Of a DNA stretch of 64,000 nt, positions 1-9,444 are shown piece by piece. How positions within the stretch are numbered: the stretch's first letter is position 1; every line of letters starts with the position of its first letter. The DNA comes from Hyphomonas sp. (GTDB lineage Bacteria > Pseudomonadota > Alphaproteobacteria > Caulobacterales > Hyphomonadaceae). Made by a program: the position numbers and the translations under genes. The notes below the pieces were generated by a model that worked only from the letters and a program-made list of their open reading frames with translations, made no database searches and was not told the origin of the DNA. The stretch lies in contig NZ_PNMA01000009.1 of NCBI RefSeq assembly GCF_013823385.1, positions 1-64,000 on the forward strand. Reading direction: 5' to 3'.

Positions 1-59
1 GTAGGTTCCTCAAGAGATATATTCTTCGTTCAGACGCTCATGGCTTTGTCGGCCGTGTA

Positions 60-761
60 GTGGATCTTTCGATTGTTGGAATGCATTTCGACACATACGA
101 AGAGCTTTGCGAATATGAAGACGCGAAGTATGTCTGGGATGTGTACAATGCGCTTTGCTCGGTAAGAGACCGTGTTGAATCGCTAAACATGGTTGCGGCC
201 ATGTTATGGCCGAAAAATCTACCGGAAGATTTTAAGCACTTTCCAGTATCTCGATATGAGTGGCTTAGAATATCAGTAGACGTATTTCTGGTTCGATACA
301 TTTCTGTAGTTGATTGCCTGATTATTCTTGCGAGCGAGGTATTGGATACCGGGTTGCCAATCAAATCTTGTACATTGAACAACCTGAAAAAAACGTCGGC
401 GCCAGCTTCAATTATTTCGCACTTGGACCTAATGATCGGCGACCAGGGCGAGCTTCGATCTGAACGTAATCGACGTGTGCATCATGGACTGGAGCGAGCC
501 TTTAGTTCTGACGATCAAATTCTTGAAATGGGAGCATTGTTTGAGCATCGGTATAGCACTGCTCGCGGCGAAAATGGCCGCCCGTTACCGGTAAACAAGT
601 TGTTTAGAGAAGGGCTCGTCGAGCTCCAGCGTGACTTCAACGCTGCCTCTAAGTTACTCGTGCGAAGGATCGACGTTCTGTATGATATGCTGTCAACAGC
701 GTTTGAAGAACGATTTTGCGAAAGACTTGAGCGGAGATTGTCAGAACAAGGAGGAGGTTAA
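60..761 (+). CDS. Hypothetical protein with an HEPN-type R-N-x3-H motif (RNRRVH)
   Basis: 233-aa ORF, GTG start at 60 or in-frame ATG at 81. Helix-rich sequence with '...LRSERNRRVHHGLERAF'. Followed 2 nt later by the next ORF. Confidence 0.6.
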   Translation: MDLSIVGMHFDTYEELCEYEDAKYVWDVYNALCSVRDRVESLNMVAAMLWPKNLPEDFKHFPVSRYEWLRISVDVFLVRYISVVDCLIILASEVLDTGLPIKSCTLNNLKKTSAPASIISHLDLMIGDQGELRSERNRRVHHGLERAFSSDDQILEMGALFEHRYSTARGENGRPLPVNKLFREGLVELQRDFNAASKLLVRRIDVLYDMLSTAFEERFCERLERRLSEQGGG

Positions 762-763
762 AA

Positions 764-1231
764 ATGTGCTTCAATGATATTGGAGGCATCATTCCTGTAT
801 GGCAGCTTCACCGGGTTGATCCAGGTTTTGTCTACATAATTGAGAGCCATGGGAAATATAAGATTGGAAAATCTAAACACGCAGTGCATCGCTTGAGGGC
901 AGCGAAAACTTGGCTACCCGATATGAAGCTGATTGGCTTTAAGCCATTCTGGGGGGGCTCTCATCACGAGCGAATGATGCATGTCGGGTTTGCCAATTAT
1001 TGGTACTCCGGTGAATGGTTCAGCTTCCCGGAAGACGACGACGTCCGAGAGCTGTTGATTGAAGGATTTTGCGCTTTTTCAGACCACCTGCCGGACCGGA
1101 ACTCGATTGACTTCATTTATTGGTTCAACGGTAGTGGCATGGCTGAATTCGTAATGGAAATGGGCAAGCAGAAGCTCTCGCTTCCGAAATTTCAAAGGCA
1201 GGAATCCGATGAGCAAAAACGCTCTTTTTAA
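764..1231 (+). CDS. GIY-YIG family protein, MUG113/T5orf172-like
   Basis: 155-aa ORF. 'FVYIIESHGKYKIGKSKHAVHRLRAAKT...SHHERMMHVGFANYWYSGEWFSF' matches the VYxI / KIG / R / ExxxH..F...GEWF pattern of this family. Confidence 0.75.
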   Translation: MCFNDIGGIIPVWQLHRVDPGFVYIIESHGKYKIGKSKHAVHRLRAAKTWLPDMKLIGFKPFWGGSHHERMMHVGFANYWYSGEWFSFPEDDDVRELLIEGFCAFSDHLPDRNSIDFIYWFNGSGMAEFVMEMGKQKLSLPKFQRQESDEQKRSF

Positions 1232-4433: not shown

Positions 4434-7400
4434 ATGCCAGAATCAAGACCACCCTCTTCGGGAGAGGGAGCCATTCCAGGTATTGCGGCTTCTCAGCCGG
4501 GCGTATCGGAATTGGAGAAGAAGGCGATTCCTGTCGTCGGAATCGGCGCGTCAACCGGCGGCCTTCATGCCTTCATTCACTTGCTCGAGGCCGTGCCTGA
4601 GCGAGCGGGAATGGCTTTTGTCCTCATTCAGCACCTTTCGCCGGACCATGAAAGCATGATGGCGGAGTTGTTGGGCGCCAGCACGCATATGACCGTTCGC
4701 CAGATTGACGCCGACATGGTGATCGAGCCGGACTGCGTTTACGTAAATGCGCCGGGACAAGACGTCTCCCTGTCGGAAAATACGCTTCTGGTGACTGATC
4801 GTCCTGCGAAGAGGGCGGATCGCCTGCCATTTGATACCTTCCTGATGTCTCTTGCCCTGGAGCGCGCCGGTCAGGCCATGTGCGTGGTGCTTTCCGGGAT
4901 GGGGCATGACGGAAGCAAGGGTTTGAAGGCGATCCGGCATGTCGGAGGTTTTGTGATTGCGCAGGATCCGGCGGAAGCTGAGGCCGACGGCATGCCACAA
5001 AGCGCCATTCAGACCGGAGATGTGGACGCTATCCTTTCGGCAGCCCTTATTCCTGCCGCGCTGATGAACTGGAACAATCTTCCCGACCGCACCCGCAAAC
5101 TTCGCACCAAAGCTGCGGTTGACGACGAGCCTGACTGGTTGAGCCGGATTCTGAAGATATTGCTGGAGCGAACCGGTACGGATTTCAGCCTCTATAAGCC
5201 CGGAACACTTGTCCGCCGGATTACGCGGAGGATGTCCCTGTTGTCGGCAAAAACTCTGCAGGGTGCAGATTATCTCAAGATACTTCTGGACAGCCCGCAG
5301 GAGTGTGAGGCGCTCGCGGCGGATTTGCTGATCAATGTAACGCGCTTTTTTCGCGACGGCGATGTGTTCCAGTTTCTGGAAAGCAGTGTGATTCCCGAAC
5401 TTGTAGGCAATCACAGGGATGACCGGCCCTTCCGGGTCTGGGTTGCGGGCTGCAGCACAGGTGAAGAAGCCTGGTCGCTCGCCATGCTGCTGCACGAAGC
5501 GATAGCGTCCGACGGCCGGAACATAAGGCTGCAAATCCTCGCCTCCGATATTGATCCGGATGCAATCGCCACCGCAAGGGCGGGCATCTACCCCTCATCT
5601 ATCGCCGCTGACATTTCCGCCGAAAGACTGGCTCGCTTTTTCACGCCGGACGAGCGCGGGTACCGGGTGCGGGACGACTTGCGCGCCCACGCAGTGTTCA
5701 CGGTGCAGAACCTGCTTACCGATCCACCCTTTGCCCGGCTTGATCTTGTCTCATGCCGCAATGTCCTCATCTATCTGGGCCCTGAGGCGCAGGCCAAGAT
5801 CATCTCGCATTTCGAGTTCTCTCTGGTTGCGCGTGGAATCCTGTTGCTTGGCTCGTCCGAGACAGGGGGAGACATCAGCGGCAGGTTCGAAGTGGTTTCC
5901 AAGCCGGCCCGCGTCTACAGGCGCGTTGGCCGCACCTGGCAGCCTGAAGCCCATACTCAGGACTTTTTTAAGGATGCTTATCCTGAACCGCCTCGCTTCT
6001 TCCTTGATCTGGAGCCTACACCGGATGTGCGCTTTGCCGATGTTTGCCGCCGGGCTGTATCCCAGCATTACACGCCTGCCTCCGTACTTGTGACGAGGGA
6101 GGGAGCATGCCTTCACTTCCTCGGCCCCGTCGACCGGTTTCTGGAGGTTCCTGAAGGCTCGGCCTCTCTGGACATTCTGCCGATGGTGCCGCTTTCACAT
6201 CGCGCCGCCCTTCGAGCCGCCATCGAAGAGGTCGGACAAGACAATCCCTACATTCAGATTGCGGGTTTAAGCACGCTCGAGTCTGGCGCCGAAAAGCCGT
6301 TCAGTACGGATGTCAGGTATACGCCCTCAGAGTCTGATGAACTCATTCTGATCACATTCCACCCTTCGCATCTGCCTGACCGGGAAGCTGGGCCGGATTC
6401 TGCGGCGCCCATTGGCAGCGAAGCGCTCCGGCTGGCTGAGATTTCTGGGCTGAGGCGGGAAGTTGCCCATGCAGGCCGCCTTGTGGACCAGGCACTGGAA
6501 AGCGAACGCAAGACCCGGCGAGAGTGTGTGCGATTGAATGAAGAGTATCAGTCTACGAATGAAGAGCTATTAACTTCGAAGGAAGAGCTTCAGGCCCTCA
6601 ATGAAGAGCTGACAGTCCTGAACAGCCAGCTTCAGGAAACAATCGAGCGCCAGCGCACGACCGCAGACGACCTGACCAATGTTCTCAACAGCACAAATGT
6701 GGCGACCCTGTTTCTGGATCTCAATCTCTGCATCCGCTTCTTCACCCCCGCGACCCGGACGGTGTTCGGTGTCATCGCCACGGACATCGGCAGGCCAATC
6801 TATGATCTCCGTCCGTTGGCGTTGGATACATACCTGCTTGATGAGGCCAGAAAAGTTCTCGATTCAGAAGAGCCGATCGAACGCCAAATCTCGACATCTG
6901 AGGACATATGGTTCCTCAGGCGCATACTGCCCTACCGGACGCATGCCGGCCAGGTCGAAGGTATCGTGATCACTTATGTGAACATTCAGGAACAACATCT
7001 GGCGAATGAAACGCTCAAGGCCGCTATCTTCAAGGCGGAGCAGGCGATTATCGCCAAGAACCGGTTTCTCGCATCGGCGAGCCACGATCTGCGCCAGCCT
7101 CTGCAAACACTGACTTTTATTCACAGCTTGCTTTCCCGCAGCGCGGAAGCTGAAGAGGTGCGGCTCCTCGCGAGCCGGATGCAACAGGCCGTCAGCGCGA
7201 TGTCCGGCATGTTGGATACAATGCTGGACATCAATCAGATACAGGCAGGGATCATAACCTACGAGCTCGAAAACATTCCGGTTGCCGAGATCCTGTCAAA
7301 CCTCTTCAACGAGTTTTCATACCACGCGCATGCCAAAGCACTTGAGTTGAGAATGGCTCGTTCGAGCGCGGTCATCCGTACCGATCGCCGGCTTTTTGAG

Positions 7401-8807
7401 CAGATGATCCGGAACCTGCTAAGTAATGCCATCCGGTATACGGATACAGGGCGCATTCTTATTGGTTGCCGCCGGCGAAACGGCCGCCTGCGGATCGAAA
7501 TCTGGGATACCGGCATCGGCATCTCAGAGAGAGAGCTTCCCAAAGTGTTCGGCGAATACCATAAGGTGGGCACCGGGAACCGCGTCTCATCCGGGGGCGT
7601 GGGTCTGGGCCTGTCTATTGTCCAGAGGCTTGCCGGCCTTCTGAGCCACAGCATTCACGTCCGCTCCTGGCCGTCCAGAGGGTCAATGTTCTCCATCGAA
7701 GTCGACCTGGCCAGTGACGCTCCCGACGAAGCAAGGCGGCATTCCGGCGATGCCGTATCCTCGGTGCAGGCCAGCCCCCGGCTGACAGCCCGCATACTGC
7801 TCGTTGAGGATGAGCCGGACCTGCGCCAGATGCTTGAGATTCTGCTCAAGAAGGCCGGTCACGATGTTGTTTCAACAGCAACGCTGGAGGAGGCCATGGA
7901 GGTAGCGGCGTTGCGGGCGGGGTATCCTGATCTTGTGATCGCCGACTACAATCTTCCCAATGGCCGGAACGGGGCCGAACTGGCGCGGTTGCTCCGGCGG
8001 CAGAACGCTTCGCTTCCGGTTATTATCCTGACAGGTGACATATCCGCTTCCACCCGCAGCCTGATTGCGGGCGAGGGGCTCACCCAGATGAACAAGCCTG
8101 TCAGTGCAGGCGATTTGGAAGACCAAACCCAGGCCATGCTGCGCCTGCAAGAGGGGGGCTCTGAAAGCACTTCTCGATATGAGCCGCAGGTCACCTCGGG
8201 TATTCACGTCGTTATTGTAGACGATGACCTGAACTTCTGTGAAACACTTTCGCTGCTGCTTCGGGCGGATGGCATTCCCACATCTTACTTCGCCTCAGGG
8301 GAAGCCTTCCTTGGGCAATGGAATGACCTCGATACCCAAGGCGGGGAAGTCTGCGTTCTCATTGATGCTTATCTTGGCGGCATCAGCGGCTTTGATGTTC
8401 TGGCGGCATTGAAGAAAGCCGGATCGAGGGCGCGGTCTATAATGATCACCGGGAACGGCGATGTGAGGATGGCAGTGCAGGCGATGAAGTCAGGTGCCCT
8501 CGATTTCATCGAGAAACCTGTGGAACTATCCAGTCTTCGGGCTGCCATTGACCGCGCGATTGCCATCGGCCGGTACACCCTTCCGCGTCAGGAAGCCGAT
8601 CCGGATGCTTCAAGACGTTTGGAAAATCTGACCCCGCGGGAGCGCGAAGTGCTGGAGCGGATTCTGTCAGGTCAGCCCAACAAGAATATTGCGGCTGATC
8701 TGGGGATCAGTCAGAGGACGGTCGAAAGTCATCGGGCGTCGATAATGGTGAAATCCCAATGCAAGTCATTGCCGGAGCTTGTGCGTCTTGCGTTCATGGC
8801 GTCCTGA
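4434..8807 (+). CDS. CheB-CheR-PAS-hybrid histidine kinase-REC-REC-LuxR HTH fusion protein
   Basis: 1457 aa. CheB: 'GIGASTGG', 'IQHLSPDHESMM', 'LSGMGHDGSKG'. CheR: 'VWVAGCSTGEEAWS', 'VSCRNVLIYLG'. HisKA: 'FLASASHDLRQPLQTL'; ATPase: 'RNLLSNAIRYT', 'DTGIGI', 'GVGLGLSIV'. REC1: 'LLVEDEPDL...VIADYNLP'; REC2: 'VIVDDDLNF...VLIDAYLGG'. HTH: 'LTPREREVLERILSGQPNKNIAADLGISQRTVESHRASIM'. Confidence 0.92.
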   Translation: MPESRPPSSGEGAIPGIAASQPGVSELEKKAIPVVGIGASTGGLHAFIHLLEAVPERAGMAFVLIQHLSPDHESMMAELLGASTHMTVRQIDADMVIEPDCVYVNAPGQDVSLSENTLLVTDRPAKRADRLPFDTFLMSLALERAGQAMCVVLSGMGHDGSKGLKAIRHVGGFVIAQDPAEAEADGMPQSAIQTGDVDAILSAALIPAALMNWNNLPDRTRKLRTKAAVDDEPDWLSRILKILLERTGTDFSLYKPGTLVRRITRRMSLLSAKTLQGADYLKILLDSPQECEALAADLLINVTRFFRDGDVFQFLESSVIPELVGNHRDDRPFRVWVAGCSTGEEAWSLAMLLHEAIASDGRNIRLQILASDIDPDAIATARAGIYPSSIAADISAERLARFFTPDERGYRVRDDLRAHAVFTVQNLLTDPPFARLDLVSCRNVLIYLGPEAQAKIISHFEFSLVARGILLLGSSETGGDISGRFEVVSKPARVYRRVGRTWQPEAHTQDFFKDAYPEPPRFFLDLEPTPDVRFADVCRRAVSQHYTPASVLVTREGACLHFLGPVDRFLEVPEGSASLDILPMVPLSHRAALRAAIEEVGQDNPYIQIAGLSTLESGAEKPFSTDVRYTPSESDELILITFHPSHLPDREAGPDSAAPIGSEALRLAEISGLRREVAHAGRLVDQALESERKTRRECVRLNEEYQSTNEELLTSKEELQALNEELTVLNSQLQETIERQRTTADDLTNVLNSTNVATLFLDLNLCIRFFTPATRTVFGVIATDIGRPIYDLRPLALDTYLLDEARKVLDSEEPIERQISTSEDIWFLRRILPYRTHAGQVEGIVITYVNIQEQHLANETLKAAIFKAEQAIIAKNRFLASASHDLRQPLQTLTFIHSLLSRSAEAEEVRLLASRMQQAVSAMSGMLDTMLDINQIQAGIITYELENIPVAEILSNLFNEFSYHAHAKALELRMARSSAVIRTDRRLFEQMIRNLLSNAIRYTDTGRILIGCRRRNGRLRIEIWDTGIGISERELPKVFGEYHKVGTGNRVSSGGVGLGLSIVQRLAGLLSHSIHVRSWPSRGSMFSIEVDLASDAPDEARRHSGDAVSSVQASPRLTARILLVEDEPDLRQMLEILLKKAGHDVVSTATLEEAMEVAALRAGYPDLVIADYNLPNGRNGAELARLLRRQNASLPVIILTGDISASTRSLIAGEGLTQMNKPVSAGDLEDQTQAMLRLQEGGSESTSRYEPQVTSGIHVVIVDDDLNFCETLSLLLRADGIPTSYFASGEAFLGQWNDLDTQGGEVCVLIDAYLGGISGFDVLAALKKAGSRARSIMITGNGDVRMAVQAMKSGALDFIEKPVELSSLRAAIDRAIAIGRYTLPRQEADPDASRRLENLTPREREVLERILSGQPNKNIAADLGISQRTVESHRASIMVKSQCKSLPELVRLAFMAS

Positions 8808-9444
8808 CCACATGCGCGCGGTATCCACGGCCTCGCGCTGGATGGTAGTATTTTAGACGGTTTCCCGCCGGCCAACCTGGCAATGGTATCGAAATTTCTG
8901 TCAGTATACCGAATGGTCCACGCTTTGATACGCGAAGCTGAGAATTTCTGACAAGAGGCGTGGATGCAAGGTTTCGGATTATAATGAAAGTTTGAAGCTG
9001 CTCGGCATGTTTCTTTATGTTGTGTAGCGAAGGCGCGCCGGCAAACCAGATCGTGGCTGAGCGCACAGGTGCGATCGTTCGCAGATGCAGACGGGGATCG
9101 GCAGGCTGGGGAAAATATCCCCTGGAGGCATCATCCGGAAAATCAAACCTGACAACCGGTTTTCCCCTTACCCGTTCTGCTTCCGCAGGTGCGGCAAGAA
9201 CCCATTGGTCATCCGCCGATTGCTCCACGGGTGCCCGAAGATTTATGGGGCGGTGAGAGGCATTGCGGCCTGACAGGTAGTCAATGAGGATGAGATAACA
9301 GTTCTCTTCAGAAGCGTCTTCGCCCTCAACAATGTCGATTTCCGCCGACAGATGCTCCGGGATTTCCCGGATCTCTATCCGGCCCTCCCTCAGTATTGTC
9401 CGTCCCCGATGGTTTTGCGTTTCCATACCATCGGATCCTTTCAA
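8794..9444 (-). CDS. Hypothetical protein
   Basis: Start overlaps the stop of the upstream ORF 9441..9899 (ATGA-type coupling). The N-terminal part looks protein-like. The C-terminus runs into the end of the preceding convergent gene, so the end is uncertain. Confidence 0.4.
   Translation of the reverse strand: MKGSDGMETQNHRGRTILREGRIEIREIPEHLSAEIDIVEGEDASEENCYLILIDYLSGRNASHRPINLRAPVEQSADDQWVLAAPAEAERVRGKPVVRFDFPDDASRGYFPQPADPRLHLRTIAPVRSATIWFAGAPSLHNIKKHAEQLQTFIIIRNLASTPLVRNSQLRVSKRGPFGILTEISIPLPGWPAGNRLKYYHPARGRGYRAHVVRTP

Follow-up and report, generated by a model that had tools for sequence, protein, structure and literature searches.

PD-lambda-5 (Vassallo et al. 2022; PADLOC) has been presented as a system that unites R-M and Abi in compact form (PMC9519451). 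In a survey of HEPN proteins (Anantharaman et al. 2013; PMC3710099), the HEPN family MAE_28990 occurs in an operon with a ParB nuclease and a methylase, and no gene association was recorded for Cthe_2314. Here we describe a gene pair at the left end of a 64 000-nucleotide stretch of DNA (the window) from Hyphomonas sp., namely a HEPN-like gene followed by a GIY-YIG nuclease gene. The homologues of this pair recall PD-lambda-5, in that the ParB-like protein encoded beside them matches PD-Lambda-5_A. However, this close branch of ParB proteins is without the D12 methylase (PD-Lambda-5_B), is accompanied by HEPN and/or GIY-YIG genes instead, and is only about 24–30% identical to the methylase-linked ParBs in our sample. 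The combination of a HEPN gene in an operon with a ParB-type gene is shared with the MAE_28990 system, which differs in that its HEPN protein belongs to another family and a methylase is included. No description of this methylase-free ParB branch was found in the literature searched, with most subscription papers outside the reach of that search.

The gene pair at the contig edge

Contig 9, from an assembly of 4.18 Mb and 172 contigs, begins at base 1 of the window. The named relatives of the pair belong to the Alphaproteobacteria, as do most of the matches to other DNA of the window. The preliminary description started the HEPN-like gene at the GTG at position 60 and suggested that an upstream partner gene, read in frame 1, ended in a TAG overlapping this codon. 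Neither proposal survived. The reading frame stays open as far as base 3, and the relatives from Rhizobium, Mesorhizobium, Devosia, Pseudochrobactrum and the genome G325 align from residues 1–5 of the window protein, so that the GTG is internal and not the start. The frame-1 peptide (...VGSSRDIFF...) is in the wrong reading frame, as the homologues align through this region in frame 3. Since the same relatives carry approximately 20 more residues upstream of the first residue in the window, the gene runs off the contig; 252 codons are visible, and about 20 codons appear to be missing at the 5′ end, judging from the relatives. Thus, of the two ORFs that had been taken as intact, the GIY-YIG gene is indeed complete, whereas the 5′ part of the HEPN-like gene lies beyond the contig edge. 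The coordinates of all features are given in Table 1.

The two genes are tightly coupled, as first noticed, with a gap of 2 nt and a strong Shine-Dalgarno sequence, AAGGAGGAGG, within the first gene. Both have G+C contents of 46–47% compared with 62% for the window, which bears out the AT-rich character originally ascribed to this region. Beside the pair are an integrase remnant, comprising the DUF6538 N-terminal part only (no catalytic domain was found), and remnants of hipBA that are frameshifted and truncated; the decay claimed for both neighbours is therefore real. Chromosomal DNA showing collinearity with the relative G020 starts near 4.5 kb of the window, and the first 3 kbp or so are thus accessory. 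A 1457-aa hybrid protein encoded farther along (CheB-CheR-PAS-histidine kinase-two receivers-LuxR) is conserved in G020. A search of the whole genome found no ParB (PD-Lambda-5_A) gene in the window's own assembly, and no further copy of the contig start turned up elsewhere. The DNA beyond the 5′ end of the pair lies off the contig, and a ParB gene may be hidden in a stretch that did not assemble or may have been lost.

Table 1. Coordinates of the features recognized in the window
Feature	Position	Strand	Basis
HEPN-like protein gene (Cthe_2314-like)	3–761	+	Frame open from base 3
Predicted catalytic motif of HEPN proteins, R-N-x-R-x-H (RNRRVH)	465–482	+	Both R residues, N and H identical across 8 homologues
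Likely ribosome-binding site for GIY-YIG translation (AAGGAGGAGG), within the 3′ end of the HEPN-like gene	748–757	+	Sequence
Complete gene for a 155-aa GIY-YIG (MUG113/T5orf172) nuclease whose C-terminal segment is family-specific	764–1231	+	MUG113 and T5orf172 matches
Integrase remnant and hipBA remnants	1509–3097		
Gene for the 1457-aa hybrid protein	4434–8807		

The HEPN-like and GIY-YIG proteins

Members of the HEPN superfamily are characterized by an R-x4-6-H motif, often R-N-x3-H, and by an all-helical, up-down helix bundle. The RNRRVH sequence to which the preliminary description drew attention is present in the first ORF, and RNxRxH is invariant in all eight sequences compared (the window protein and seven homologues). 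Because RN...H has a 2.5% probability of arising by chance in a shuffled copy of the protein, it is the conservation of the motif, and not its mere occurrence, that counts as evidence. The homologues from Rhizobium, Azospirillum, Mesorhizobium, Devosia, Pseudochrobactrum and G325 are 42–52% identical to the window protein. HEPN_Cthe2314 (PF18730; Anantharaman et al. 2013) is the sole Pfam family matched by all eight members (all E ≤ 1, best 3.3e-5), and its match in the window protein extends to just beyond the motif. However, the window protein scores 17.2 bits, under the curated Pfam cut-off of 27.1, and we therefore call it HEPN-like and do not file it as a PF18730 member. PF18730 members searched for in 299 genomes gave weak matches only. 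The AlphaFold model (pLDDT 68.7) is all helical with a confident core and has no PDB match at E ≤ 0.001. Values of dN/dS for the closer homologue pairs range from 0.05 to 0.13, with synonymous sites near saturation in one pair, and indicate purifying selection. On these sequence comparisons, the window protein is likely, though not proven, to be a HEPN protein.

A scan of genome contigs with the single HEPN protein as query gave no matches, and a scan with the HEPN alignment as query gave four loci; no member of the family was found in the viral-contig scans. Profile comparison detected no relation of either the HEPN-like protein of locus L035 or the protein labelled SEC2 to the window HEPN family, and we consequently regard these as distinct proteins whose motifs are alike. 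Directly after the HEPN gene, a second small protein with R-D-x3-H is encoded in two loci (L009:8783-9370 and L003:8783-9367); its gene in L003 overlaps the HEPN stop, and by profile comparison this second protein is unrelated to the HEPN family.

The assignment of the second ORF as GIY-YIG/MUG113-like was confirmed, with a MUG113 match above the cut-off (E 3.5e-5, 24.7 bits versus 22.3) and a T5orf172 match at E 0.0034. The nuclease-core residues Y24, G35, R43 and E69 are invariant in six homologues, and E69 would be the metal ligand. The family shares its domain with the T5orf172/MUG113 GIY-YIG nucleases but differs from them in its defence-gene neighbours and in an extra C-terminal segment (NSIDFIYWMNGSGMSEF-like), which is conserved in the homologues from Agrobacterium, Ensifer and two other genomes. 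The searches made found no close phage-borne relative: no homologue was present in the viral contigs scanned, and the phage search returned only five weak partial matches. In a phylum-wide sample the window was the sole match. The structure model has a pLDDT of 50 and no significant PDB match; one of the structure-prediction alignments was built without rows from plasmid records. For close homologues of the GIY-YIG gene, dN/dS is 0.10.

The ParB-like gene beside the homologues

A ParB-like gene adjoins the HEPN gene in six of the seven homologues outside the window. The two genes diverge in L004, where an IS separates them, and likewise in L008, L009, L010 and L011; in L033 they are co-directional. 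The ParB-like protein matches PD-Lambda-5_A of PADLOC over nearly its full length (E 5e-76 to 5e-88), and DGNRR is invariant in it. There is no ParB within 11 kb of the Rhizobium leguminosarum HEPN gene, and A. argentinense has ParB alone. The upstream partner gene of the preliminary description is accordingly plausible by homology, as a ParB-like gene, but not for the reason originally given, and none was found in the assembly.

The class scan (385 genomes) recovered the GIY-YIG family in two of the 384 other genomes, G325 and G455, in both cases at a ParB locus. These two homologues were first met beside ParB, but the genome-wide profile search that followed added no more from the sample. 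The G325 locus (L033:8755-11404) has ParB, followed by HEPN and then, a few nucleotides away, a convergent GIY-YIG gene. In G455 (L035) the GIY-YIG and ParB genes are convergent and 22 bp apart, and an upstream gene that carries RNAVQH and matches PADLOC PDC-S64 (E 8.6e-9) overlaps the GIY-YIG gene. The co-occurrence test proposed in the preliminary description thus found the same HEPN and GIY-YIG families as neighbours in one other genome (G325), and the GIY-YIG gene following a different HEPN-like gene in G455. The same-strand order of HEPN and then GIY-YIG, with these two families, is seen in the window only; the samples of genomes and loci are small.

A D12 methylase directly adjoins all six of the distant ParB homologues examined, and two of these methylases match PD-Lambda-5_B of PADLOC at about 1e-112. 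By contrast, the methylase is absent from all close-branch ParB neighbourhoods, within the DNA stretch examined for each locus, and the neighbours there are instead HEPN, GIY-YIG, GajA/GajB and type I R-M-like genes. In the ParB tree, the methylase-linked ParBs form one group, to which that of L037 is the neighbour, and this group is separate from the branches with HEPN and GIY-YIG genes; the two GIY-linked ParBs (G325 and G455) are sisters with a support of 1.0. The defence genes near ParB or GIY-YIG homologues are GajA and GajB (L034), genes of L037 that read as type I R-M-like from their sequence and, next to the GIY-YIG gene of L006, the Septu-like PDC-M01. At L034:5214-10437 the PD-Lambda-5_A-like ParB gene is immediately 5′ of the Gabija pair (GajA, GajB). 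An AAA ATPase with an OLD-like TOPRIM domain is encoded downstream of the Devosia HEPN gene (L009:9619-11106).

A putative defence module and its alternatives

Since the relatives of both genes cluster with ParB and defence genes, the idea of a module is supported, and it is from this genomic context that we infer a defence role for the locus. The chances appear about even that the two genes are what can be seen here of a mobile module directed against phages, one belonging to an undescribed methylase-free branch around a PD-Lambda-5_A-like ParB. The initial suggestion of a module of two or three genes, for defence or with a toxin, is strengthened to the extent that relatives of the pair are neighbours of PD-Lambda-5_A-like ParB genes and of type I R-M, Gabija and Septu-like genes. 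More tentatively, such loci may represent a modular anti-phage family of their own in Alphaproteobacteria, with a methylase-free ParB sensor and exchangeable HEPN RNase and GIY-YIG DNase effectors, in which self and non-self would be distinguished without DNA methylation. Judging from the protein families, the ParB-like protein (a ParB/Srx NTPase or nuclease) would sense infection or foreign DNA, the HEPN protein would act as an endoRNase and so arrest growth, and the second effector, GIY-YIG, would nick or cut DNA. The effectors would be exchangeable, the loci carrying HEPN alone, GIY-YIG with another HEPN-like gene, or both. A PD-lambda-5-like ParB without a methylase, but with partners that cut RNA or DNA, raises the question of how the nucleic acid of the host is spared.

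The tight coupling of HEPN and GIY-YIG in the window would also suit a toxin–antitoxin locus that stabilises mobile DNA and is not anti-phage. HEPN would be its toxin, and the antitoxin or regulator would be the GIY-YIG protein coupled to it or, in the relatives, ParB. The small gene that follows and overlaps HEPN in L003 points the same way, as do the mobile contexts, for example that of L033, around which genes resembling those for relaxases and coupling proteins were read from the sequence. We consider this unlikely, as the partner of HEPN varies (ParB only, ParB plus SEC2, SEC2 only, or GIY-YIG) and the predicted catalytic residues are kept in the GIY-YIG protein. Furthermore, HEPN persists where ParB is split by an IS (L004) or is in two pieces (L010), which a ParB antitoxin would hardly allow. 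The locus might otherwise be the remnant of a decaying island that has lost ParB and whose HEPN–GIY pair is non-functional; the truncated integrase and hipBA, the failure to find ParB in the assembly and the HEPN gene left open at the contig edge are consistent with such decay. However, the 252 visible HEPN codons and the 155 GIY-YIG codons are uninterrupted and retain the invariant motif residues, which makes a dead remnant quite improbable.

Equally improbable, in our estimation, is that the GIY-YIG gene encodes a selfish, homing-type nuclease that lies beside the HEPN gene by chance and has no joint function with it. T5orf172 is heavily mentioned in work on phages that regards nuclease genes as homing endonucleases (PMC10448857), and GIY-YIG homologues occur without HEPN or ParB in L005 and L006. 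Against this stand the ParB loci at which both other homologues of the class scan are situated, and the results of the viral-contig and phage searches given above. The reading as part of an anti-phage module is the one that we prefer.

In Agrobacterium (L005 and L006, at about 4800–8940) the GIY-YIG gene, unlisted in the plasmid records, has an HNH gene on one side and an HNH/AAA-ATPase pair on the other, the latter being the Septu-like PDC-M01 in L006. At L013:2292-2762 the C-terminus of the GIY-YIG homologue weakly matches the N-terminus of a PtuA1 model (E 4.8e-4), a feature absent from the other GIY-YIG homologues tested. In the Ensifer locus (L007:1444-6414) the GIY-YIG homologue comes after genes for a metallophosphoesterase, an ORC-CDC6-like ATPase and a CARF6 protein (PADLOC E 7e-160), and has an integrase and VapBC close by.
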